NCBI RefSeq assembly: GCF_018885305.1
Contig: NZ_CP076544.1
Location: 2,232,001-2,296,000, forward strand
Source: Curtobacterium sp. L6-1
GTDB taxonomy: Bacteria > Actinomycetota > Actinomycetes > Actinomycetales > Microbacteriaceae
Direction: 5' to 3'
Length of the DNA stretch: 64,000 bases
Below are positions 7,739-38,574 of this stretch, in pieces (the first letter of the stretch is position 1; the number at the start of each line of letters is the position of its first letter). A program made the translations under genes and the position numbers. Below the pieces are notes generated by a model. It was not told where the DNA came from, did no database searches, and saw only the letters and a program-made list of their open reading frames with translations.

Positions 7739-8494
7739 TCAGGAGGCGCCGATCGCCCCGAACGCGAGGTACACGGCCAGCACGCCCGCCGTCCCGACGA
7801 CCCCCGTGCCGAGGGCGAGCACCCGCCCGACCGGCGTCCGGGCGACGACGACCCCGGCGACCAGGACGGCGATCCCCACCACGATCTCGACGACCCAGGG
7901 CACCGTCCCCGTGGTGTCGGCGACCTGCAGCAGCGCGCGCACGCCCTCGCCGACGAGGACCGCCGCGGTCACCCCGGCCGCCGCACCCCGCCAGCGTCCG
8001 TCGACGGACCGGACGGCGACCGCCACGGCACCCGCCAGGAGCCCGGCGGGCAGGGCCATCACGACCCAGAAGTTCGTCCACGACAGGCTGTCGACGTAGC
8101 CGCGCAGGTTCGTGGCCGCCCAGTAGCCGATGTGCATGAGCTCGAGCAGGACGACGCCGAGCACCATCGCGGCCGCGGTCCGCAGGCGGGGGCGCCCCGG
8201 ACGGGTCCCACCGACCCGGAGGCGTCCGACCCCGGCGGCGAGCACGAGCGGCACGGCGACGACGAACCACGGCCCGGCAGCGTTCGACAGCGACGCGATG
8301 GCGGGCACCGCCTGCCCGAAGCTCGTCGCGACGCCGACCAGGACCGCGCCGGTGAGCGCCGTCGTGATGCGCACCAGCGGCGGCATCGCGGTCGTCGGTC
8401 GGACCGGACCGGCCGGGTGGCTCCGGCCGGTCGAGCGAGCCGGGTCGACGGGCGACGCGGCGCGGGACACGGTGGAGGGCGGAGTGCTGTGCAT
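7739..8494 (-). CDS. Multi-spanning membrane protein, DUF6518-like
   Basis: A 251-residue integral membrane protein with about seven to eight hydrophobic helices after a Pro/Ser/Arg-rich cytoplasmic start (residues 1-40). The central segment HIGYWAATNLRGYVDSLSW and the even spacing of helices resemble the DUF6518 family, which has no established function. The family assignment is tentative. The ATG at 8494 begins MHSTPPSTVSRAASP. The gene lies between the RND transporter and the MocR regulator, both also on this strand, with spacing too large for a clear operon. Confidence 0.7.
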   Translation of the reverse strand: MHSTPPSTVSRAASPVDPARSTGRSHPAGPVRPTTAMPPLVRITTALTGAVLVGVATSFGQAVPAIASLSNAAGPWFVVAVPLVLAAGVGRLRVGGTRPGRPRLRTAAAMVLGVVLLELMHIGYWAATNLRGYVDSLSWTNFWVVMALPAGLLAGAVAVAVRSVDGRWRGAAAGVTAAVLVGEGVRALLQVADTTGTVPWVVEIVVGIAVLVAGVVVARTPVGRVLALGTGVVGTAGVLAVYLAFGAIGAS

Positions 8495-8580
8495 GCTCCG
8501 ATGGTGCCGTCCGGTGCGCGGCCCGCGCATCCCCCGGCGGGCCCACCGCCCTCCCCCTCGAGGATGACGCAGCCCGGCGT

Positions 8581-10020
8581 TCAGACCACCGCGGCCAGCG
8601 ACCCCCGCGCTCCCGAGGACGCCCCGCCGACCCGCTCCCACGCCCGCCCGAGCACGTCCACCAGCCGCTCCCGGTCCGCCCCCGTCACGGTGAACGGCAC
8701 GCGCAAGGACCGCTCGAACCCGCCGTCGGGTCCGAACACGCCTCCGGAGGCCAGCACGACGCCCTCCGCCCGCGCGGCGAGCACCAGTGCGCTCGACACC
8801 GGCCGCCCGAGCCCGACCCACGTCGTCAGCCCGCCCGCCGGTGACGGCACGTCCCACTCGGGCAGTCGCGCGCGGAGCGCGGACACGAGACCGTCGCGAC
8901 CCTCGCGCAGGGCCGGACGGCGCGCCTCCAGGACGGCCGCGGTCTGCGGGACGAGCTCCCGCGCGACGAGCTGGTCGAGCGTCGGGGTGCCGAGGTCCCC
9001 GGTCGGCCGCGCGAGGAGCAGCCGCTGCAGCAGCTCCGGTGTGGCGCGGATCCACCCGATCCGCAGCCCGCCCCAGAACACCTTGTCCGCCGAGCCGACC
9101 ATGACGACCTCGCCCGGCGCGTCCACCGCGAGCGGCGGCGACGGCGGGCCGTCGATGCGGAGCTCGCCCATCGTCTCGTCGGCGACGACGACCATGCCGA
9201 CGGCCGCGGCAGCCTCGAGCAGCACCCGCCGGGTCGAGGCCGGCATCGTCGCGCCCGTGGGGTTGTGCAGGTCGGGCATGACGTACGCGAGCGTCGGGGC
9301 CGAGCGGCGGACGGTCGCGTCGAGCACGCCCTCGTCCCAGCCGCCCCGTGGGTCCACGGGGACCGTCACGGGGCGACCACCGGCGGCACGCAGGGCCTCG
9401 TGGGCGTGCGGGTAGGTCGGCGACTCGAGGAGCACAGGGTCGCCGCGACCGACGAGCACCCGGGCGAGCAGTGCGATGGCGTGCTGCGCGCCGACCGTGA
9501 CGACGACCTCGGCCGGGGTGGTCGGCAGGCCGCGCTCGGTGTACCGGTCGGCGATCGCGGCGCGCAGGCCCGGGTCGCCGACGGTGTCGAACCCGATCCC
9601 GGCGAGTGCCGCGGGCAGGTGCCGCATCGCACGCTCGACGGCCTCGGCGACGACGGGGGCGCTGCGGAGCGCCGCCTTCCGCAGGTCGAGCACGTCCTCG
9701 GGCACGACGCCGTCGAACTGCTCGGGGTCCGGTCGGCCGTCGAGCGGGAGGCGGACGACACTGCCGGACCCGCGCAGTGAGGTCAGGTACCCGTCCTCGC
9801 GCAGGCGTGCGTAGGCGTTGGCGACGGTCGTGCGCGAGACGCCGAGTGCGCCGGCCAGTCCGCGTTCGGCCGGCAAGCGGGCGCCGTGCGGGACGCGGCC
9901 GTCGATGACGAGGACCCGGACGGCGTCGGCGAGCGCCTCGTAGGCCGGGGCGTCGGAGCCGGCTCGCCAGTGTGTGAGCAGCAGTGCGGCGGAGCGGGCG
10001 CTGACCAGGACGGGCGTCAT
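8581..10020 (-). CDS. MocR-type PLP-dependent transcriptional regulator (YczR-like)
   Basis: Regulator of 479 residues with a GntR winged helix fused to a fold-type I aminotransferase domain. The DNA-binding part covers about 25-88 (SRTTVANAYARLREDGYL). The PLP domain shows NPTG at 253-256, Asp281 in the DET motif and the Schiff-base lysine K313 in SADKVFWGG. The divergent neighbour is a YczE/YitT-like membrane protein. The MocR-YczE pairing is known from Bacillus (YczR-YczE) and many Actinobacteria, so the regulator probably controls that gene and itself through the operator at 10036-10064. The ATG at 10020 follows TACCGT by 6 nt, consistent with a leaderless mRNA. Confidence 0.92.
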   Translation of the reverse strand: MTPVLVSARSAALLLTHWRAGSDAPAYEALADAVRVLVIDGRVPHGARLPAERGLAGALGVSRTTVANAYARLREDGYLTSLRGSGSVVRLPLDGRPDPEQFDGVVPEDVLDLRKAALRSAPVVAEAVERAMRHLPAALAGIGFDTVGDPGLRAAIADRYTERGLPTTPAEVVVTVGAQHAIALLARVLVGRGDPVLLESPTYPHAHEALRAAGGRPVTVPVDPRGGWDEGVLDATVRRSAPTLAYVMPDLHNPTGATMPASTRRVLLEAAAAVGMVVVADETMGELRIDGPPSPPLAVDAPGEVVMVGSADKVFWGGLRIGWIRATPELLQRLLLARPTGDLGTPTLDQLVARELVPQTAAVLEARRPALREGRDGLVSALRARLPEWDVPSPAGGLTTWVGLGRPVSSALVLAARAEGVVLASGGVFGPDGGFERSLRVPFTVTGADRERLVDVLGRAWERVGGASSGARGSLAAVV

Positions 10021-10035
10021 GGGTCCACGGTACCC

Positions 10036-10064
10036 GGATTGGCTCTCGACCAGCAGGCCAATCC
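10036..10064. promoter_or_regulatory. Inverted-repeat operator between mocR and yczE-like genes
   Basis: Perfect 8-bp arms GGATTGGC (10036-10043) and GCCAATCC (10057-10064) are separated by 13 bp. It sits in the 61-bp divergent spacer and overlaps the space where both promoters must lie. ATTGG-type half-sites are what has been described for YczR-like MocR regulators. The assignment rests on position and symmetry. Confidence 0.72.
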
Positions 10065-10081
10065 CGGCCACGATCGTCTGC

Positions 10082-10783
10082 ATGCCCCGCTCCCTCGCCC
10101 TGTCCCTGCGGTCCGTGCAGCTCTTGGTCGGCCTCTTCCTCTACGGCGCCTCCGTGGCACTGCAGGTCCGCGCGGTGCTCGGCGTCTCCTCGTGGACGGT
10201 CCTGACGCAGGGGCTCGAGCACGTCGTGCCATGGTCGTTCGGGGTCATCACCGTGGTGTCGAGCCTGGTGATCCTGCTGCTCTGGATCCCGCTCCGGCAG
10301 CGACCCGGCATCGGGACCCTCCTCAACGCGCTGGCGATCGGCCCGGCCGCCGACCTCGTGCTCTGGCTCGTGCCGACGCCGGGGACGCTGGTCGGACGCG
10401 TCCTGCTGCTGGCGGCGAGCCTCGCCCTGCTCGCCGTGGCGACCGCCTGCTACATCGGCGCCGGGTTCGGCACGGGCGCCCGGGACGGGCTGATGGTGGG
10501 GCTGCACGAGCGCTTCGGGTGGCCGGTCTGGGCGGCGCGCACCGTGGTCGAGGTCACGGTCGTCGTCGGCGGTTGGCTGCTCGGCGGCGACGTCGGGATC
10601 GGCACCGTGGTCGCCGCGTTCGCGATCGGACCGATGGTCCAACCGCTCATGCCGGTCTTCCGCCGGTTCCCGTGGAGCCCCGTCCTGGAGGCCCGCCCCG
10701 CGCCCGCGACGCTCCCCACCGCCCCGGACACCCTGGTCGCGGGCCCCCTGCCGGCCGAGAGTGCGCCGGACGTCTCCCGCTGA
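10082..10783 (+). CDS. YczE/YitT-family integral membrane protein
   Basis: A 233-residue membrane protein with about five to six helices, starting MPRSLALSLRSVQLLVGLFL. Features typical of YczE/YyaS are GVSSWTVLTQGL near 38, GIGTLLNALAIGPAADL near 78 and GAGFGTGARDGLMVGL near 125. Its molecular role is not established; in Bacillus yczE is linked to the MocR regulator YczR. It is transcribed away from the mocR gene and is the likely regulatory target. The ATG at 10082 gives the full first helix and excludes an unrelated 36-residue extension. Confidence 0.85.
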   Translation: MPRSLALSLRSVQLLVGLFLYGASVALQVRAVLGVSSWTVLTQGLEHVVPWSFGVITVVSSLVILLLWIPLRQRPGIGTLLNALAIGPAADLVLWLVPTPGTLVGRVLLLAASLALLAVATACYIGAGFGTGARDGLMVGLHERFGWPVWAARTVVEVTVVVGGWLLGGDVGIGTVVAAFAIGPMVQPLMPVFRRFPWSPVLEARPAPATLPTAPDTLVAGPLPAESAPDVSR

Positions 10784-10801
10784 CCCTGTCCCTCGACGAC
10801 G

Positions 10802-10842
10802 GACGCGATGTAGCGTGACTCGAGGACGCGATGTATCGCGTC
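10802..10842. promoter_or_regulatory. Palindromic operator upstream of DUF4097-padR operon
   Basis: The 18-bp perfect palindrome GACGCGATgtATCGCGTC lies at 10825-10842, and an imperfect second copy GACGCGATGTAGCGTGAC lies 23 bp upstream at 10802-10819. The tandem sits 26 bp before the ATG of the DUF4097 gene and probably overlaps its promoter. The co-transcribed PadR protein is the obvious ligand, implying autorepression. Confidence 0.75.
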
Positions 10843-10867
10843 CACCCAGCAGCAACGAGGAGACGTC

Positions 10868-11776
10868 ATGGCACAGGAGAAGTGGCTCGTCGACGAGCCG
10901 AAGGTCATCGACACCGGCATCGTCCGGGCACTGCGCGTCGGCCTGGTCGGCGGGCAGGTGGACGTCGTCACGCACGACGAGCCGACCGCCCGCGTGGAGA
11001 TCCACCAGGTGTCCGGCAAGCCGATCAAGGTCGAGATCGAGGGCGACACCCTCACGGTCGACCACCCCCAGATGCGGTGGGACGACCCGCTCGGCTTCCT
11101 CAAGTCCTTCCGGGGCGGTGGCGCCCGCGCGGACGTCAGCATCCTGGTGCCGCGCGACGTCACCGTGAACCTCGGTGCCGTGTCCGCCGGCGTCCTGCTC
11201 TCCGGCACCGAGCGCGGGGCGATGCTCAACAGCGTCTCCGGCGACGTCGTCGTCGACGGGGTCATCGGCGACGTCACCGTCAACGCCGTGTCGGGCACGA
11301 CCACCATCCGCGACCAGGTCGGTGCCGTCGCGCTCCGCACGGTCTCGGGTGACGTCGTCGCCACGGGCGAGATCCGCCGCTTCACGGCCGACGCCGTCTC
11401 CTCCGCCGTGGTGCTCGACCTGCACGGCTCCCCCGACCAGGTGAAGGTCAACACCGTCTCCGGTTCCGTCGACGTCCGCCTCGAGCACGGCACCGCCTAC
11501 TCGAGCACCGTCGCCACCGCCACCGGTCGCCTGCAGTTCGACGACGCCGAGATCCGCGGCACCCGCGGGTCGTACACCCGCACCGACGGCGAGCTGTCCG
11601 GCTCGTACGTCGACATCCGCGTCAACACGGTCTCCGGCGACGTCGCGATCGTGCACGGCCCGGCTCCGGTCCCGACGGCCGAGGCGACCGGCACCCCGGG
11701 CACCGCACCCGACGGCGGCGCCGGCGGCACGGGCAGCACCGCGCCGAGCTTCGACGAGCAGGGCGGCGTCGCATGA
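10868..11776 (+). CDS. DUF4097 beta-helix-like protein
   Basis: A 302-residue protein without signal peptide or membrane helix. From about 90 to 240 it consists of repeated short beta-strand motifs of the type NSVSGDVVVDG, NAVSGTTTI, RTVSGDVVAT and NTVSGSVDV, characteristic of DUF4097 (adhesin-like right-handed repeats). The tail from 265 is Gly/Thr/Pro-rich. Function is unknown, but in Actinobacteria these proteins are commonly coupled to a PadR regulator, as here: the last bases overlap the padR start in ATGA. GAGGAG 7 nt before the ATG supports this start. Confidence 0.88.
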   Translation: MAQEKWLVDEPKVIDTGIVRALRVGLVGGQVDVVTHDEPTARVEIHQVSGKPIKVEIEGDTLTVDHPQMRWDDPLGFLKSFRGGGARADVSILVPRDVTVNLGAVSAGVLLSGTERGAMLNSVSGDVVVDGVIGDVTVNAVSGTTTIRDQVGAVALRTVSGDVVATGEIRRFTADAVSSAVVLDLHGSPDQVKVNTVSGSVDVRLEHGTAYSSTVATATGRLQFDDAEIRGTRGSYTRTDGELSGSYVDIRVNTVSGDVAIVHGPAPVPTAEATGTPGTAPDGGAGGTGSTAPSFDEQGGVA

Positions 11777-31425: not shown

Positions 31426-31453
31426 CGGCCGGTCTGGCCCATGACCATGTTTG

Positions 31454-31467
31454 GTTGACGCGTCAAC
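31454..31467. promoter_or_regulatory. Perfect 14-bp palindrome GTTGACGCGTCAAC before VOC gene
   Basis: The palindrome lies 22 bp upstream of the ATG at 31490. Its TTGACG could also be a -35 box with CACACT 17 bp on as -10. This placement fits a repressor site for the dioxygenase gene. No regulator gene lies beside it. Confidence 0.6.
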
Positions 31468-31489
31468 AAAGTGGGCGCACACTGAGGGG

Positions 31490-32512
31490 ATGAACTCGCA
31501 GGACCTCCTCGCCGCGGACACCGGGATGGGCGCCGTGACGCTCCGGGTCGCCGACCTCGACGCCGTCACCGCGTTCTACCGGGACGGCGTCCGGCTGACG
31601 GTCCTGGCGCAGGAGGGTGGCCGGGTGGTCCTCGGTCGGCCGTCCGCAGGAGCTGCGGTCGCTGGTGCCGGTGCCGGTGCCGGTGCCGGTGCCGGTGCCA
31701 CCGTCGCCGGCGCTCCTCTCCCCGGTGCTCGCGTCGCCGACTCCCCCGTCGCCGGCGCTCCCGTCGCCGACGCCCGGGCGGCCACGGGGCTCACCGTGCC
31801 GATCCTGGTCCTCGAGCACGAGCCGGCCCTCCGGAACGCCGGACCGGGGCAGGCAGGTCTGTTCCACACCGCGATCCTGTTCGACGACCGTTCCGACCTG
31901 GCCGCCGCCCTGTACTCCGTCGCCACGCGCTACCCGCGGTCGTTCACCGGCAGCGCCGACCACCTGGTCAGCAACGCGTTCTACTTCACGGACCCGGAGG
32001 GCAACGGCGTCGAGCTGTACTGGGACCGCGACCGCACCGAGTGGTCGTGGACGCACGGGTCGATCGACATGGACACCGTGTACATCGACCCGAACGCGTT
32101 CCTGCAGGAGCACCTCACCGCGGAGGCCGTCGAGCGCGCCGACACCCGGCCCGGCCGCGTCGGCCACGTCCACCTGTCGGTCGGCGACGTGGCCTCGGCG
32201 AAGGCGTTCTACGTCGACACGCTCGGCTTCGCGACCACCGCGGCGATGGGCGGCCAGGCACTGTTCGTCAGCGCCGGCGGGTACCACCACCACATGGCGA
32301 TGAACACGTGGAACTCCCGCGGAGCGGGGCGACGGCAGCAGGCGCTCGGACTCGGGCTGGTCCGGATCGAGGTCCCGGCCGCCGACGACCTCGGCGCCCT
32401 GACCGCCCGGATGCGCGATGCGGGCGTGCAGACCACTGACGACGGTCGCACGGTCGCGTTCGAGGACCCGTGGGCCAACCGCATCGAGGTGACGACCGCC
32501 GGTCGCGGGTGA
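31490..32512 (+). CDS. VOC-family extradiol dioxygenase-like protein (CatE-like)
   Basis: A 340-residue protein of two vicinal-oxygen-chelate modules, resembling catechol 2,3-dioxygenase CatE. First module: VTLRVADLDAVTAFYRDG near 15, LFHTAILF near 124, GNGVELYWDRDR near 172. Second module: GHVHLSVGDVASAKAFYVD near 224, GYHHHMAMNTW near 264 and RIEVTT at the end. The metal-ligand His and Glu residues are present. An Ala/Gly/Pro-rich insert at about 55-100, partly a GGTGCC microsatellite, interrupts the first module and is absent from typical CatE. GAGGGG precedes the ATG. Confidence 0.87.
   Translation: MNSQDLLAADTGMGAVTLRVADLDAVTAFYRDGVRLTVLAQEGGRVVLGRPSAGAAVAGAGAGAGAGAGATVAGAPLPGARVADSPVAGAPVADARAATGLTVPILVLEHEPALRNAGPGQAGLFHTAILFDDRSDLAAALYSVATRYPRSFTGSADHLVSNAFYFTDPEGNGVELYWDRDRTEWSWTHGSIDMDTVYIDPNAFLQEHLTAEAVERADTRPGRVGHVHLSVGDVASAKAFYVDTLGFATTAAMGGQALFVSAGGYHHHMAMNTWNSRGAGRRQQALGLGLVRIEVPAADDLGALTARMRDAGVQTTDDGRTVAFEDPWANRIEVTTAGRG
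31664..31699 (+). repeat. GGTGCC hexanucleotide microsatellite, six copies
   Basis: Six perfect GGTGCC units encode alternating Gly-Ala inside the VOC dioxygenase. They are followed by degenerate GTCGCCGGCGCTCC units up to about 31780. Confidence 0.92.
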
Positions 32513-32648: not shown

Positions 32649-33737
32649 TCACCGGGTGCGGAAGTAGCGGTGCAATGCACGCTCCCGGACGAGCGGCACC
32701 GCGGCTGCACCTCCCGTGACCGCGCCGACGAGTCCGAGCACGCAGAGGACCGTGCCGTCCGCGACGATCGGCAGCCCGTCCCCGGGCGGGAGACCACGGA
32801 CGAGCACGACGGACACGGCGAGCGCCAGGGCCGCGGCGACCGCACCCCACGCGAGGTGCTGGACGGCGATGCCGAGTGCCTGCGCCGCCACACGGACCCC
32901 GACGTGACGGTCCGAGGCGATCGACAGCCGTCGACGCAGGACCGCAGCGCACCCGACGACGAGACCGAGGGCGAGCGCCACCGACTCGAGCAGGCCGGGG
33001 GCCGGCGGGTCACTCGGGAGGAACGCGGTCCCGGAGCGGGGGTTCAGCTGGCCGAGCGTCGACCGCTCGCCGTCCTCTGACCCGGTCGCTGTGAGCAGTG
33101 TCCGCCGGAGCGCGCTGACGGCGGTCTCGTCCTGGGGCCAGACGGTCGCCCAGCACGCGTCGAAGGGCGCACCGTCGTCGACGGTCGGAGCCAGGACCGC
33201 GTACGACAGCTCGGGGTCGCGGCCGTCGTCCGGGTAGGCGTAGACCCCCGCGACCGGCACCGGACCGTCCGGTGTCGCGATCTGCTGCCCCGGACCGACG
33301 CCGAGGACCTCGGCCACCTCGGGGGCGACGAGGACACCCGTGGCACCGGTGGTCCCCGCGACGCCGAACAGCGCGGTCGCTCCACCGGTCACCTCGTACG
33401 TCGGGATCGACGTCCCCGGGAGCGCCGCGACGACCATGCCGTCCTCGGTCTTCCGGAAGGCGCCGGCTGCCAGGACGTCCGGCTCGTCGGCCAGCGCCGC
33501 GCACGCCCGCCCGTCGATCCGTCCGGCCGCGGTGAACACCTGCGTGGCGGCACCGGACGCCACCCATCGCGCTGCGGCGCGGACGTCATCCGCCACGGCG
33601 ACGGTCCGGACGCCGACGACCCCCGCGACCAGCACCGCCAGGACCCCGGCGCAGACGACCGCCGCACCCGCGCCCGAGGCGATGTCCCGCCAGGCCTCAC
33701 GGAGGACCTCCGTCGTCCGCATGCCGGGCCGTCTCAC
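32649..33737 (-). CDS. FtsX/MacB-like ABC transporter permease of the peptide locus
   Basis: Last gene of the eight-gene locus. A 362-residue membrane protein with the one-plus-three helix layout of MacB/FtsX permeases. The N-terminal helix is at about 24-47 (AAVVCAGVLAVLVAGVVGVR). A roughly 200-residue extracytoplasmic domain follows, with helices near 264-283, 303-325 and 331-352 and a basic tail. The GTG at 33737 overlaps the ATPase stop in GTGA; an ATG 15 bases downstream (33722) is an alternative. It presumably pairs with the ATPase and anchored adaptor upstream to export or respond to the small secreted peptides. Confidence 0.82.
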   Translation of the reverse strand: MRRPGMRTTEVLREAWRDIASGAGAAVVCAGVLAVLVAGVVGVRTVAVADDVRAAARWVASGAATQVFTAAGRIDGRACAALADEPDVLAAGAFRKTEDGMVVAALPGTSIPTYEVTGGATALFGVAGTTGATGVLVAPEVAEVLGVGPGQQIATPDGPVPVAGVYAYPDDGRDPELSYAVLAPTVDDGAPFDACWATVWPQDETAVSALRRTLLTATGSEDGERSTLGQLNPRSGTAFLPSDPPAPGLLESVALALGLVVGCAAVLRRRLSIASDRHVGVRVAAQALGIAVQHLAWGAVAAALALAVSVVLVRGLPPGDGLPIVADGTVLCVLGLVGAVTGGAAAVPLVRERALHRYFRTR

Positions 33738-34330
33738 CGGAAGGCCCCGAGGTCGAGGACTGCTCCACACGCAGCCCGTGTGGCGTCGTCGTGCGTCGCG
33801 ACGACGACGGTGGTGCCGGCCGCTGTGAGCTCGGCGATCACGTCGTTCACCTCGGCCGCGGTCGTCCGGTCGAGTTGCGCGGTGGGTTCGTCGACGAGCA
33901 TCAGGGTCGGGTCCGTGGCGACACCCCGTGCGAGCATCAGCCGCTGCGCCTCGCCGCCCGAGAGCTCGCGGAACCGCGCAGTGGCCCGCGCCGCCAGACC
34001 GAAGCGCTCGAGGACGACCATCGCCCGGTGCTCGGCCGCACGTCGACGCATCCCGCGGGCGAGCAACGGCAGGGTCACGTGGTCGAGCGCGGTTCGACGC
34101 GCCACCCCGTGCGGGTTCTGGAACACCCACAGCACGGCGGCGTCGTCGGGCAGTTCCACCCGTCCGGCCGTCGGGGTGGTCATCCGGGCGAGGATCGCGA
34201 GCAGCGTCGACTTCCCGGACCCGCTCGGGCCGACCAACGCCGTCACGGTGCCCTCGTCGAAGGTCCGGTCGACGTCGCGGAACAGTTCGGTGCCGTTCGG
34301 CCAGCGGTGCCCGACACCACGGAGACTCAC
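33734..34330 (-). CDS. ABC transporter ATPase of the peptide locus
   Basis: A 198-residue ATP-binding subunit, compact like LolD/MacB-type ATPases. Walker A GPSGSGKST is near 34-42, a Q-loop in WVFQNPHG near 74, signature LSGGEAQR near 124, Walker B LMLVDEPTAQLD near 144-155 and the switch His in VATHDD near 177. The GTG at 34330 overlaps the adaptor stop codon in GTGA, and its own stop overlaps the permease start the same way, so the three are co-translated. Confidence 0.93.
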   Translation of the reverse strand: MSLRGVGHRWPNGTELFRDVDRTFDEGTVTALVGPSGSGKSTLLAILARMTTPTAGRVELPDDAAVLWVFQNPHGVARRTALDHVTLPLLARGMRRRAAEHRAMVVLERFGLAARATARFRELSGGEAQRLMLARGVATDPTLMLVDEPTAQLDRTTAAEVNDVIAELTAAGTTVVVATHDDATRAACGAVLDLGAFR

Positions 34331-35385
34331 CGGCACGGCCGACCGCTGTCGGGCGCTGCGCGGACGCGGTCGAGTGTCGCTCCTGGGCCGACTCGGACGA
34401 AGGACTGCCCGAGCTCGGAACCGACGACCTCCACCCGGACCGGGTCCCCCGTCACCGGCTGTACGCACGCGTGGTCGTCGCGGAGGTCCCAGAGCGCGGT
34501 CGGCGGCACGACCTGGACCGTGAGGGGCTCGGCGAGCGCCCACGTGGCCGGGAGCGTCGGGACGCCGTCGGCGGACGCCACCGTGGCGGCGTACTCCGGC
34601 AGCGCGCCGATCTGCGCGAGTGCTGCCGGGTCCGTCACCACCCCGTGGTCGTCGACGGCGCTGTGGAACTGCCCGACGGCGACCACCCGCGCGCCGGCCA
34701 CGACGTCGGCGGGGAGCTGCTCGATCCGTGCTCCGCGGAGTTCCGCTGGCAGTTCGACGAGCGTGCCGTCGGCGTCCACCGGCGCTCCGACCACCGCCGT
34801 GCACGTCCGGACCGTCGCCTCCGCCGCGGGGATCCACGCGAAGGCCGAGCGCTCGATCGAGTCGTCCGACACCGCCGAACGGGGAACGTCGTGGGCCAGG
34901 AGGAACCAACGCGCCGCCCGGAGCGTTCCCGGTCCGACGATCCCGTCGACCGCGATGGTCGACCCCAGTCGGGCGAGTTCCTGCTGGAGCCCGCGGACGT
35001 CCGCACCCCGGTCGTCGACGTGGAGGTCCCGGAACAGCGGCGTCGCGCTGGCGAACGCGATCACCGGCAGGTCGTCGACGCGGGCGATCTCCGTGCCGCT
35101 CCGGATGACTCCGCCGGTCGAGCACGACGAGGACGTGACGATGCCGGTGCGGCTCGTGACCACGGCTCGGGGTGCTCCGGTGTCGAGCGCGAGCTGCACC
35201 TGGTGTTCATCGGCGTCCGTCCGCTCGGTGACCGCCACCGTGCCGACCGGCCTTGCCGTCCGCAGGGCCGCTGGAGGATCGGCCGGGAGCGCCACGACCG
35301 CACCGACGGCTGCGGCCGCAGCGAGGAGCAGGCTGCCGAGACCGAGGAGCGAGCCCGACAGCGCGGCGGTGCGACGCCCGCTCAT
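34327..35385 (-). CDS. Membrane-anchored adaptor with peptidoglycan-binding domain
   Basis: A 352-residue protein with one N-terminal membrane anchor (about 8-30). An HlyD-like beta region follows (TSRTGIVTSSSCSTGG and SGTEIARVDDLPVIAF), then a PG_binding_1 module near 135-175 (GADVRGLQQELARLGSTIAV, then GPGTLRAARWFL) and a C-terminal beta-rich domain. This combination is the usual third component of actinobacterial MacB-like exporters, spanning between membrane and cell wall. It starts in an ATGA overlap with the third lipoprotein and ends in a GTGA overlap with the ATPase. Confidence 0.85.
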   Translation of the reverse strand: MSGRRTAALSGSLLGLGSLLLAAAAAVGAVVALPADPPAALRTARPVGTVAVTERTDADEHQVQLALDTGAPRAVVTSRTGIVTSSSCSTGGVIRSGTEIARVDDLPVIAFASATPLFRDLHVDDRGADVRGLQQELARLGSTIAVDGIVGPGTLRAARWFLLAHDVPRSAVSDDSIERSAFAWIPAAEATVRTCTAVVGAPVDADGTLVELPAELRGARIEQLPADVVAGARVVAVGQFHSAVDDHGVVTDPAALAQIGALPEYAATVASADGVPTLPATWALAEPLTVQVVPPTALWDLRDDHACVQPVTGDPVRVEVVGSELGQSFVRVGPGATLDRVRAAPDSGRPCR

Positions 35386-35975
35386 CCCTGCCGCCAGAGG
35401 CCGAGTGGGTCCAGCCGGCACTGGACAGCAGCAGGGTCGTACTCGTCGAACGAGAACGTGCCGGTGTCGTGCTCGGACCGCCATCGGCGTTCGGTGTAGT
35501 CCGGGCCGACGAGGCCCGACGTCCGCAGACATGCGGCGGTGATCTTCGCGTCGTCCTGCTTCTCCGGATTGCGACGAGTCTCGGTGAAGAGGTACGTGAT
35601 GCTGTGGTCCCACCTGTCCAGGCACGCGAGCCGCGTCTTCTCGAGCGCGGCATCCACGCCCTCGGTGAGCGCACTGCCATCCGAGGGGGTCACCTCGTAC
35701 GTGTTCTCTTCCGACCACTCGAGGTCGAATCCGCCGTCGTGCATGCAGCTCTGCACCCGGCGATGCGAGTCACTGAGTTCAGCGGCCGTCACCACACCAT
35801 CCGTGAGCACCTTCCGCTCGTAGGGAGAGGCTTCGCCTCGAGCCTGCGCGAACTCCGCACTCCACGGACCATCCGCCATCGCCGAGTGAGCGTCGCGACG
35901 AGCATCTGTTCGACCTGGAGCGCAGCCAGCGAGGAGACCAGTTGCGAGGATGACGCCGAGGACACGGACCGCCAT
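35382..35975 (-). CDS. Four-cysteine lipoprotein, copy C (peptide-locus family)
   Basis: I do not recognise the family. The 197-residue lipoprotein has a signal peptide ending in LLAGC (Cys17). The mature part is Asp/Glu/Arg-rich with four conserved cysteines (VQSCMHDGG, RLACLDRW, TAACLRTSG, VQCRLDPLG), probably two disulfides. It ends QCRLDPLGLWRQG. The middle motif RRNPEKQDDAKI and DYTERRWRSEHD are shared with the two paralogues upstream. It follows peptide 1 by 27 nt and overlaps the adaptor start in ATGA. ATG 35975 is preferred to a TTG at 35990. A role as immunity protein or peptide-handling partner is inference. Confidence 0.85.
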   Translation of the reverse strand: MAVRVLGVILATGLLAGCAPGRTDARRDAHSAMADGPWSAEFAQARGEASPYERKVLTDGVVTAAELSDSHRRVQSCMHDGGFDLEWSEENTYEVTPSDGSALTEGVDAALEKTRLACLDRWDHSITYLFTETRRNPEKQDDAKITAACLRTSGLVGPDYTERRWRSEHDTGTFSFDEYDPAAVQCRLDPLGLWRQG

Positions 35976-36002
35976 CGGTAGCGAGAGCAACTCGTGGGCC
36001 GA

Positions 36003-36281
36003 TCAGGCTCGGACCATCCCGTACTGCGTCACGTCGGCGTAGCAGAGCCGTTCGAACGACCAAGCGTCGGCACCGACGGTGTTGCCGAACTTCTTCGTGC
36101 TGTTCCTGATGATGTTGAAGTGGACCGCCCTGCCGCAGCCCGTGTAGTTCTTGCCCTTCGTCTGGGTGATCTGTCCCCAGCACGCCGAGGCCGTCGCCTC
36201 GGTCGCGGACGCTGCATCGAGGGCGATGCCTCCGCTGACGACGATGCCGACGAGCGCGGTACTGACGAGCAACTTCTTCAT
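36003..36281 (-). CDS. Secreted three-cysteine peptide 1
   Basis: A 92-residue preprotein with a Sec signal peptide: basic MKK, hydrophobic LLVSTALVGIVVSGGIAL, and an Ala-rich cleavage region around SATEATASA. The mature 59-60 residues start ACWGQITQTKGKN and contain three cysteines, a GNTVGADAWS segment and the end YGMVRA. About 28 of 59 mature positions match peptide 2 in a hand alignment with one gap. AGAGGAAGA lies 7 nt before the ATG. I know no family; it resembles a Sec-secreted bacteriocin in size and style. It precedes lipoprotein C. Confidence 0.82.
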   Translation of the reverse strand: MKKLLVSTALVGIVVSGGIALDAASATEATASACWGQITQTKGKNYTGCGRAVHFNIIRNSTKKFGNTVGADAWSFERLCYADVTQYGMVRA

Positions 36282-36396
36282 GATGGTCTTCCTCTCTGTT
36301 CGCCACGGACCTCGTGGCAACGAACATCCATGCAATTCCGGAGGCAGGAGGCAGATCGGCTCCTCGGCGGCCCCCTCCGCCCCTCCGCCCGCGCGC

Positions 36397-36996
36397 TCAT
36401 CCCTGTCGCCCGAGGCCGAGAGGGTCCAGCCGGCACCGGGTCGCTTCCGGAGACCACTCCTCGAAGGAGAAGTGGTCTCCCGCCCGTTCGCTCCGCCACC
36501 GCCGTGGGGTGTAGTCCGCGCCGACGACGCCCGAGCGCCGGAGGCAGTCCGCCTGGATCACGGCCTCGTCCCGGTGCTCCGGGTTCCGTCTCACTGCGTC
36601 GAACAACTCCGAGATGCGGTGGTCGAACCGCCGCGAGCAGTCCGCCACGTACGCCATCACCTGATCGATGCTCTCGCTCTGACGGCGCAACGGGTCGATG
36701 GCGGCAGCGCCGTCACGGTGCTCCTCGTACCGGTACCCGTGGCCCCGCATGCACGTGCTCGTTCGCGCTCTGGCATCAGCGCGTTCGTCGGCGGTGATCA
36801 CACCGTCCGCGAGGATCCTCACCTGGTTCTGAGCCACCGCTGCTTCCGCGAACTCCGCCGCTCAGGGGCCGGCGGCCGCGAAGACCGCGGGGTCGGCCCG
36901 ATCGGAAGTCGATCCGCTCCGGTCCGGGTGGGCCTGGGCGCAGCCACTCAGGAGCAAGGACAGCAGCGCCGTCAGCGCGCACGATCGCAGCGTCAT
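36397..36996 (-). pseudogene. Four-cysteine lipoprotein, copy B, with internal TGA codon
   Basis: Reading from ATG 36996 gives MTLRSCALTALLSLLLSGC, a good lipoprotein signal with lipobox LSGC at Cys19, then a mature part to AAAGP. Codon 45 is TGA (36862-36864) at exactly the site where both paralogues have Trp (GPW-A-EF), after which the frame continues as AAEFAEAAVAQNQV through all four family cysteines to CRLDPLGLGRQG. One base change (TGG to TGA) explains it. Restart at the GTG at 36837 would lack a signal peptide. The ATG overlaps the copy A stop in ATGA. It could be a true pseudogene, a sequencing error, or, least likely, recoding. Confidence 0.88.
36862..36864 (-). other. In-frame TGA replacing a conserved Trp codon
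   Basis: The codon lies between CCC (Pro) and GCG (Ala) in the frame opened at 36996. The aligned residues in copies A and C are Trp (GPWADEF and GPWSAEF). No selenocysteine-insertion hairpin is evident just downstream. Confidence 0.88.
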
Positions 36997-37616
36997 GGTT
37001 CCCGCCACAACCCGAGTGGATCGAGCCGACACTGCTGTGCACGCTCGTCGTACTCGTCGAACGAGACGAGGCCGGAGTCGGACTCGGCCCGCCACTTCCG
37101 CTCGGTGTAGTCCTTCCCGACCACACCGGCCCTCCGGAGACACGCAACGGTGATCGTCGCTTCGTCCTGCTTCTCCGGATTGCGTCGGGACTCCTCGAAG
37201 AGCATGGTCACGTACTCGTCGTACTGCTTCTCGCACGCGCGCAGGACCGGATCGGACCGGTCGAAGAAGTCGTCGGGGTACTTCCCGTCGAGCGAGAGCA
37301 CGTCGAAGCCCCCGTCCGGGTCGTACTCGATCCCGAGCCCCGAGTCGGCGAGGCATGCACGCACCCGACCGTGCACGTCCTCGACCTCGGCGGTGGTGAT
37401 CTGCCCGTCGGCGAGGATCTTCTCCTCGTACGAGGAGATGCCCGCCCCGAGCGCTTCGCGGAACTCATCGGCCCACGGCCCAGCATGAGCGAGTGCCGGG
37501 TCGGAGGCGGCGCCCGTCAGCTGGGGTCCCGTGGCTCGTGCGCACCCGGACGCGAGGAGTGTGACGACCGCCGCCATCACGATCGCCACGCCGGCGCAGC
37601 CACGCTCCTGGCGCAC
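36993..37616 (-). CDS. Four-cysteine lipoprotein, copy A (peptide-locus family)
   Basis: A 207-residue lipoprotein, the best-preserved member of the family. The signal peptide MRQERGCAGVAIVMAAVVTL ends at lipobox LASGC (Cys25). The mature protein has an acidic middle (DPDGGFDVLSLDGKYPDDFF) and the four conserved cysteines (VRACLADSG, LRACEKQYD, TVACLRRAG, QQCRLDPLG). It ends CRLDPLGLWREP. The GTG start at 37616 lies 3 nt after the peptide 2 stop. The stop overlaps copy B in ATGA. Function unknown; pairing with a peptide gene is repeated twice in this locus. Confidence 0.86.
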   Translation of the reverse strand: MRQERGCAGVAIVMAAVVTLLASGCARATGPQLTGAASDPALAHAGPWADEFREALGAGISSYEEKILADGQITTAEVEDVHGRVRACLADSGLGIEYDPDGGFDVLSLDGKYPDDFFDRSDPVLRACEKQYDEYVTMLFEESRRNPEKQDEATITVACLRRAGVVGKDYTERKWRAESDSGLVSFDEYDERAQQCRLDPLGLWREP

Positions 37617-37619
37617 CGG

Positions 37620-37898
37620 CTACCTCGCGGTCATCCCGTACGAGACGACGTTCGCCCAGCAGAGGCGCTGGTGCGACCACCCCCCTCGACCGACCCAGGC
37701 TCCGTACTTCGACGACGAGCCCCGGATGGCGTTCCAGTGCCGCGCACTCGAGCAGGTGTTGTTCTTCCCCTTCAGCAGGCTGACCGAGCCGTAGCACGCC
37801 GCCGCCTCTGCCCGAGGCGCCGACGCCACGTCGAGCGCCAGGGCGCCGCTGACGATCGTGCCCACGACGGCTGCGCCGAGGATCACCTTCGCGATCAT
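37620..37898 (-). CDS. Secreted three-cysteine peptide 2, first gene of the locus
   Basis: A 92-residue preprotein, the same length as peptide 1. The signal peptide is MIAKVILGAAVVGTIVSGAL, with an Ala-rich cleavage region ending RAEAA. The mature part starts ACYGSVSLLKGKNNTC, carries GAWVGRGGWS and RLCWANV, and ends YGMTAR. The three cysteines and the KGKN, VG..WS, RLC.A.V and YGM motifs are shared with peptide 1. GGAGGG lies 7 nt before the ATG. It is not a recognisable lactococcin-972, lantibiotic or pediocin-type sequence. Confidence 0.83.
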   Translation of the reverse strand: MIAKVILGAAVVGTIVSGALALDVASAPRAEAAACYGSVSLLKGKNNTCSSARHWNAIRGSSSKYGAWVGRGGWSHQRLCWANVVSYGMTAR

Positions 37899-37940
37899 GT
37901 CCGTTCCCTCCACCCCCGCGAGCCCCTCGCGTTGATGTGC

Positions 37941-37969
37941 AACGTATTACCGTCTGCCGGCGATCGCAA
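37941..37969 (-). promoter_or_regulatory. Sigma-70-like promoter of the peptide locus
   Basis: On the minus strand TTGCGA (37964-37969) and TACGTT (37941-37946) are separated by exactly 17 bp. The -10 box lies 42 nt before the ATG of peptide 2, leaving room for a leader with the GGAGGG ribosome site. Confidence 0.6.
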
Positions 37970-38007
37970 CAGTTCATGTCGCATCTCGAATGGCCCAAGA
38001 TGGGCTC

Positions 38008-38574
38008 ATGAGCGAAGACATCCGGTGGGAGGTGGTCGAGGAGAGCGCGCTGACGCTCGCCGACCACGAAGCGATCGCGGCGATGCTGGCGCAGGCGTTC
38101 CCGAGCTGGTCGCACTGGTACGTCGGCGGTCGGAGCTGGGCGGGCATGCAGCCCGAACGACGGGTGCTCGGTCGGAGCGGGGACGGCGTCGTCCTGGCCC
38201 ACGTCGGCATCCGCCGGATGTTCGTCACGGTCGGCGGTGAGGACGTCCTGGTCGGTGACACGGGACTGGTCGGTGTGTCACCACGCCTGCAGGGCACCGG
38301 GGTCGGCCGCGAGTTGATGGACCACGTGCACGACGTGCTCGACGGCCTCCGCGTGCCGTACGGCTTCCTCGGCGCCGGCGAGGACCGCATCCCCTTCTAC
38401 GCACACATGGGCTGGCACGAGTTCCCGGAGGCGATCGGCACGTTCAGCGCGTTCACCGCGGACGGCGCGGGCATCGTCGAGACCGAACAGGGCGGGTGGA
38501 TGGTCCGTCCGGTGACCGCCCGGCTCGAGGACTGGCCGGAGGGTCCGGTCCTCCTCAACGGCCAGCAGGTCTGA
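38008..38574 (+). CDS. GNAT-family N-acetyltransferase
   Basis: A 188-residue soluble acetyltransferase. The acetyl-CoA-binding motif is VSPRLQGTGVGRELMDHVHD near 89-108, preceded by beta strands GVVLAHVGIRRMFVTV and DVLVGDTGLVGV. The fold and the GFLGAGEDRIPFYAHMGW segment are like NodA/aminoglycoside-type GNATs, but the substrate cannot be assigned. It is divergent from the peptide locus. ATG 38008 is chosen over 37990 because the CAAGAT hexamer lies 6 nt upstream. Its last codons form the first unit of an 18-bp repeat. Confidence 0.86.
   Translation: MSEDIRWEVVEESALTLADHEAIAAMLAQAFPSWSHWYVGGRSWAGMQPERRVLGRSGDGVVLAHVGIRRMFVTVGGEDVLVGDTGLVGVSPRLQGTGVGRELMDHVHDVLDGLRVPYGFLGAGEDRIPFYAHMGWHEFPEAIGTFSAFTADGAGIVETEQGGWMVRPVTARLEDWPEGPVLLNGQQV

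Follow-up and report, generated by a model that had tools for sequence, protein, structure and literature searches.

A cluster of eight minus-strand genes in Curtobacterium sp. L6-1, running from position 37898 to 32649 of the 64,000-nucleotide stretch of contig NZ_CP076544.1 analysed here (the window), appears on balance to be a variant of the lactococcin-972 bacteriocin locus, with cognate immunity lipoproteins, a shared ATP-binding cassette (ABC) machine, and a different peptide family and helpers. The host genome is a single 3.40-Mb contig. In order of transcription, the genes encode peptide 2, lipoprotein A, lipoprotein B (broken), peptide 1, lipoprotein C, a membrane-anchored adaptor, an ABC ATPase, and a permease, as a preliminary description of the window had it; 25 further genomes carry orthologous clusters (that of L078 in decayed form), which shows the arrangement to be more than chance. 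That description called the locus unrecognised, which holds for the peptide and lipoprotein families but not for the architecture, which ties it to loci of the lactococcin-972 kind. For the peptides, lipoproteins, and permease, searches of Pfam and NCBIfam gave nothing above cut-off and PADLOC gave nothing at E <= 1. The window presents, on one strand, a secreted-peptide slot followed by lipoprotein, adaptor, ATPase, and permease homologous to those of the loci described next.

The tie to lactococcin 972 comes from other genera. At E <= 1e-8, 43 of 398 genomes of the family contain a match to a lipoprotein profile (3 of them from Curtobacterium), and these represent 22 of 85 genera; a second lipoprotein profile matches 5 of 396 genomes across the phylum, that of L6-1 included, and a peptide profile finds the L6-1 genome alone among 297 of the order. 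Of 40 regions from other genera, 32 have the adaptor-ATPase-permease set behind the lipoprotein, and 33 of the 40 yielded slot peptides, 34 secreted-peptide genes hand-picked from the open reading frames (ORFs) ahead of the lipoprotein. The peptide of L133 is a remnant, none was accepted in L127 (near a contig end), and the ORFs of L151, L154, and L157 were judged by us not to be slot peptides. When these 34 were scanned together with that of L073 (35 in all), 18 matched Lactococcin_972 (PF09683) and 18 matched TIGR01653; the others comprise relatives of the window peptides (L128, L145, L147, L150, and L161, by our A1 profile) and further cysteine-bearing classes. Two more, in L144 and L139 (the latter listed with a short start), were added by eye outside the 35, and the L144 peptide, which resembles lactococcin 972 by eye, carries that label in the class analysis below. 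Among named organisms, Compostimonas, Agreia, Labedella, and Rathayibacter have a lactococcin-972 peptide with the lipoprotein and ABC set, as mapped with a lactococcin profile built from such slot peptides, and Sanguibacter inulinus (L203, with the full set) and Frigoribacterium (P0147) have window-type peptides; the named loci partly repeat those already counted (e.g., L196 is L149). In L125 and L126, the profiles find a peptide and a lipoprotein with no adaptor-ATPase-permease set nearby.

A search with PF09683 through 347 genomes of the order matched 15, with 16 matches in all, from which 15 loci were mapped (two in G507; that of G597, at a contig end, is unmapped). Two of these, L194 and L195, are of the lipoprotein-adaptor-ATPase-permease type, and by profiles the remaining 13 show no lipoprotein or adaptor (12 have an ATPase), ORFs having been read for L181 alone. 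L181 (G000:C1:2960000-2976000, 7770-11071) is a canonical lactococcin-972 operon in the genome of L6-1 itself, with a peptide, a 673-aa membrane protein, and an ATPase; with the window cluster in the same genome, one strain thus holds both operon types. We found no published description of the lipoprotein-adaptor-ATPase-permease architecture in the open-access literature.

A broader reading, which we hold tentatively, is that of a modular actinobacterial platform, in which a shared wall-anchored ABC machine and fast-evolving cognate immunity lipoproteins accept peptides of several classes unrelated in sequence (lactococcin 972, the window class with its three cysteines, and others), with extra lipoproteins as a resistance repertoire. 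Across genera, the lactococcin or non-lactococcin label changes 2 times for the lipoprotein (38 rows; shuffled mean 12.7, the shuffles being compared with this count only), 2 times for the permease, 4 for the adaptor, and 6 for the ATPase (31 rows). The permease and the lipoprotein follow the label equally well, so across genera the operon moves as a block. If the platform reading is true, a dedicated immunity protein family could be assigned to lactococcin-972-type systems, for which passages of the published accounts place immunity in the cluster, call single genes putative, and describe the genes behind lcn972 as putative immunity or transport genes (PMC11796350, PMC4055356); according to one of them, the Lactococcus cluster as a whole strongly raises the tolerated dose, the putative immunity genes being orf2-orf3 (PMC4055356).

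Both window peptides are 92 aa long, secreted, and bacteriocin-like. Peptide 2 (37620..37898, minus strand; alternative GTG start at 37913; 134 bits with the A1 profile) belongs to class Y, with mature start ACYGS, and peptide 1 (36003..36281, minus) to class W, with mature start ACWGQ. Their Sec-type signal peptides, and the lipoboxes of the lipoproteins, can be seen by eye as first reported, and the conserved cysteines reported with them are confirmed in the lipoproteins and in the mature peptide, where C34, C49, and C80 each occur in at least 90% of 78 relatives. Each peptide would be secreted by a Sec-type route, fold to a small beta structure, and act on the envelope of close relatives.

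A stronger claim, compatible with a lactococcin-972 locus variant, is that the window peptides are diverged true homologues of lactococcin 972 with the same lipid II target; passages of two accounts give lipid II as the molecule that lactococcin 972 binds (PMC11796350, PMC9964109). A member of that family would also be expected to block septum formation. The mature part of peptide 1 is all-beta in a structure model, and structural comparison of that model has lactococcin 972 (2LGN) among its matches with near-full coverage (55/66 residues aligned). Together with the same slot, a similar length, and one relative (P0079) that a source names "Lactococcin 972 family," this lends the claim some substance. 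It is nevertheless rather doubtful, since the sequences give no sign of kinship: none of the 78 members of peptide alignment A4 matches PF09683 or TIGR01653 at E up to 0.1, hhalign of the window peptide family against lactococcin 972 found no sequence relation (Prob 18.7), and the 2LGN stretch inspected has no cysteine where the window peptides have conserved ones.

Within Curtobacterium, peptides, lipoproteins, and ABC genes travel together. In 66 genomes, the lipoprotein profile matches 31 at E <= 1e-3 (28 strongly) and the peptide profile 28 at E <= 0.01 (26 strongly, all 26 with the lipoprotein); matches of about 20 bits only were dropped (G003, G005, and G065 for the lipoprotein, G024 and G032 for the peptide). 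A lipoprotein lies behind a peptide in 26/26 mapped peptide-bearing loci, the window included. Adaptor, ATPase, and permease then follow in 25, the set of L065 being in several reading-frame pieces; in the decayed L078, the permease tail alone remains. A failure of peptides and lipoproteins to travel with the ABC genes, the outcome on which the preliminary description would have given way, was looked for and not found.

The cluster adjoins a GNAT acetyltransferase gene in 24 of the 26 loci (37990..38574, plus strand, in the window) and, in 23 of these, a VOC-family gene on the opposite side (31451..32512, plus); both are border genes outside the system, and L072 and L073 lie elsewhere. The GNAT gene is found in 64 of 66 genus genomes. 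Regions were taken from 20 of the 42 genomes in which this site lacks the cluster (two of the 20, G026 and G027, carry it elsewhere): the VOC and GNAT genes are adjacent, with 23-371 bp between the matched parts, in 19 of the 20 regions, the remaining one hitting a contig end. Clean empty sites between common borders show that the cluster is optional, an island with one principal location. The window VOC protein aligns to its relatives as two pieces (about 1-64 and 115-353), which suggests that this copy carries a low-complexity Ala/Gly-rich insertion. A stretch on a contig of G021 (L089) holds the lipoprotein and ABC set with no recognised peptide, at 64.5% GC against about 71% for three other loci, and is possibly a foreign or contaminating contig.

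Curtobacterium peptides were sorted by hand, according to motif, into class Y, most of which have ACYGS, and class W, most of which have ACWGQ (L072 and L073 were labelled Y; L080_9457 was labelled W, for the W-peptide remnant before it). On a tree of the 33 first lipoproteins after a peptide, class changes once, whereas 500 shuffles average 11.1 changes and never give fewer than 5; dropping L072 and L073 leaves 31 and still one change. Support for the W clade is 100/98 in a tree that omits the L089 lipoprotein. Lipoproteins of <=150 aa or with a stop stayed out of the trees, so that lipoprotein B of the window entered only as its 152-residue post-stop part. Six loci (the window, L066, L071, L076, L080, and L088) hold both classes, and there lipoproteins cluster by peptide, not by genome; since cassette order is reversed in L088, position is not the cause of this grouping. 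That each bacteriocin-like peptide has one lipoprotein partner, as first proposed, is therefore well supported, with lactococcin-972 peptides filling the same slot elsewhere and lipoproteins tracking peptide class. Cassettes would be gained, lost, and duplicated ahead of one shared machine; L071 has four ahead of a single ABC set. Protein P0149 joins the signal region of a peptide to the C-terminal part of a lipoprotein (by eye), apparently through deletion within one cassette.

In the window, lipoprotein A (36993..37616, minus; 207 aa, class-Y clade) is the partner of peptide 2 and a likely immunity lipoprotein, and lipoprotein C (35382..35975, minus; 197 aa, possible TTG start at 35990, class-W clade) is the partner of peptide 1. 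Lipoprotein B (36397..36996, minus; class-W clade) lies between the two cassettes and is indeed broken, by a single in-frame TGA at 36862-36864, and intact relatives exist. Its post-stop part gives ratios of nonsynonymous to synonymous substitution rates (dN/dS) of 0.23-0.51 against four relatives, so the break looks recent. A Propionibacteriaceae genome fragment (L209) carries a tandem row of four members of this lipoprotein family, possibly an immunity array.

For the lipoproteins, the preliminary description had offered immunity, folding, or loading. We favour immunity: the lipoprotein encoded directly after a peptide would remain on the producer membrane and neutralise that same peptide. 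The choice follows from genomes that have kept a lipoprotein of one class while having no peptide of that class. Nine lipoproteins are extra, that is, not directly behind a peptide, and those of L083 (clade W) and of L064 and L082 (clade Y) belong to genomes whose one detected peptide is of the other class. Where a tested pair included an extra lipoprotein, dN/dS was 0.14-0.51 (first-lipoprotein pairs, 0.19-0.47), and where it included one of these three, 0.20-0.51, values of purifying selection. Immunity genes that outlast their toxin are familiar in bacteriocin loci, and retention of a chaperone without its peptide would not be expected. Strains with scbBC only are an example of immunity genes kept without toxin, according to a passage in PMC11796350. 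Some extras may thus be kept as protection against the peptides of rivals.

The main competitor in this matter assigns the lipoprotein the role of a dedicated extracytoplasmic chaperone, has the ABC set carry the folded peptide through the wall, and places immunity elsewhere. Several observations count in its favour. Cognate pairing fits a chaperone equally well; just 3 of the 9 extras lack any same-class peptide, which weakens the immunity reading and raises that of export; and 4 of the 9 (window, L066, L076, and L080; all clade W) have a Y cassette on one side and a W peptide, or what is left of one, on the other, and may be linked to that W neighbour. In L074 and L075, the extra lipoprotein (clade Y) is a duplicate copy downstream of a Y peptide. 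Part of the adaptor scores below threshold as peptidoglycan-binding, and the ATPase shows a match, under the cut-off, to TIGR03608, a model named putative bacteriocin export transporter. We nonetheless regard export with folding as unlikely, given the conserved extras of L083, L064, and L082 and the Sec-type signals of the peptides.

Those signals also make export, the role first given to the ABC set, less likely for it than clearance or target protection. The adaptor (34327..35385, minus; 352 aa), with one transmembrane (TM) segment, would hold a single shared machine of MacB/LolCDE/FtsEX type at the cell wall, and this machine would most likely clear or detach peptide from the producer envelope. 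The FtsE/LolD/MacB-like ATPase (33734..34330, minus) scores 93 bits with ABC_tran; its nearest NCBIfam models, FtsE, AztA, and LolD, stay below their cut-offs, as does L_ocin_972_ABC (122 bits; cut-off, 254.85), and its PDB matches include LolD, FtsE, and MacB chains mixed with other ABC ATPases. No Pfam family, the FtsX/MacB permease domain included, matches the permease (32649..33737, minus; 362 aa), and a MacB-like topology is present: TM1, an extracytoplasmic part of ~190 residues, and three further TM segments.

Among seven close loci (6-7 sequences per gene, in sets that vary by gene, with paralogues in W), mean nonsynonymous difference (pN) is 0.027-0.038 for the flanks and ATPase, 0.073 for the adaptor, and 0.097 for the permease, rising to 0.119 (Y) and 0.248 (W) for peptides and 0.213 (Y) and 0.353 (W) for first lipoproteins; peptides and lipoproteins diverge most, as a trend rather than a test.

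Start-stop overlaps (ATGA or GTGA) join 4 of the 7 junctions (lipoprotein A-lipoprotein B, lipoprotein C-adaptor, adaptor-ATPase, and ATPase-permease), so the overlaps stand but not the five initially counted. Peptide 2 and lipoprotein A are separated by 3 bp, peptide 1 and lipoprotein C by 12-27 bp, and lipoprotein B and peptide 1 by 115 bp, an interval in which an ATGA starts a short ORF, not peptide 1. The promoter proposed at 37941-37969 (minus) gives no match to the sigma-70 consensus, but an element there is probably real, since, among 24 clusters examined, 15 have a core TTGC-N16-20-ATACGTT ~39-50 nt ahead of their first peptide, with both classes represented, and the window contains this core once. 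In L066 and L076, a palindrome, GGTAT-N5-ATACC, replaces this core upstream of the first peptide, and L081 has a similar one; GGTAT-N5-ATAC is perhaps the operator of a different regulator.

Such regulatory elements, both the conserved core and the palindrome of L066 and L076, would suit peptides that act as pheromones sensed through lipoprotein and ABC machine, on the model of BceAB-like sensing. Signalling of this kind is nevertheless improbable: no further gene recurs in the mapped unit, though no search was aimed at regulators, and lactococcin-972 bacteriocins occupy the same slot. That the peptides inhibit, for example, a competitor or plant hydrolase, with lipoproteins shielding the producer's own enzyme, is the least credible proposal, its supporting match being as weak as many unrelated ones and the context tying the slot to bacteriocins.

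Natural matched and mismatched pairs are available here, given the two classes of peptide, the two clades of lipoprotein, the extra lipoproteins, and the clean cluster-free relatives, and they make producer protection directly testable. The cluster also brings two unnamed protein families of actinobacteria to light, one of peptides and one of lipoproteins.

Comparison with known systems places the cluster among several partial likenesses. In lantibiotic self-immunity, the lipoprotein NisI traps the peptide and the ABC machine NisFEG clears it; the window would resemble this by analogy in its two-part design of membrane lipoprotein and ABC machine, but its lipoprotein matches no Pfam family, and no lantibiotic-type genes are seen by eye in the unit. 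With MacAB (systems that include an adaptor), LolCDE, and FtsEX, it shares the ATPase resemblance and a permease topology in which TM1 is followed by a large outer part, and differs in a permease that matches no Pfam family and an adaptor with a peptidoglycan-binding stretch. As in the lactococcin 972 operon (lcn972-orf2-orf3; streptococcin B scbABC), a small secreted peptide comes first, with ABC-type genes for presumed immunity and transport behind it. Unlike that operon, the window has peptides that match neither PF09683 nor TIGR01653; a lipoprotein, wall-binding adaptor, ATPase, and 4-TM permease in place of the canonical large multi-TM protein (673 aa at L181) and ATPase; and a machine that several cassettes can share. 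The lactococcin-972 loci of other genera, for example Compostimonas, Agreia, Labedella, and Rathayibacter, have one cassette with a lactococcin-972 peptide in the slot and, in the same order as the window, homologous lipoprotein, adaptor, ATPase, and permease.

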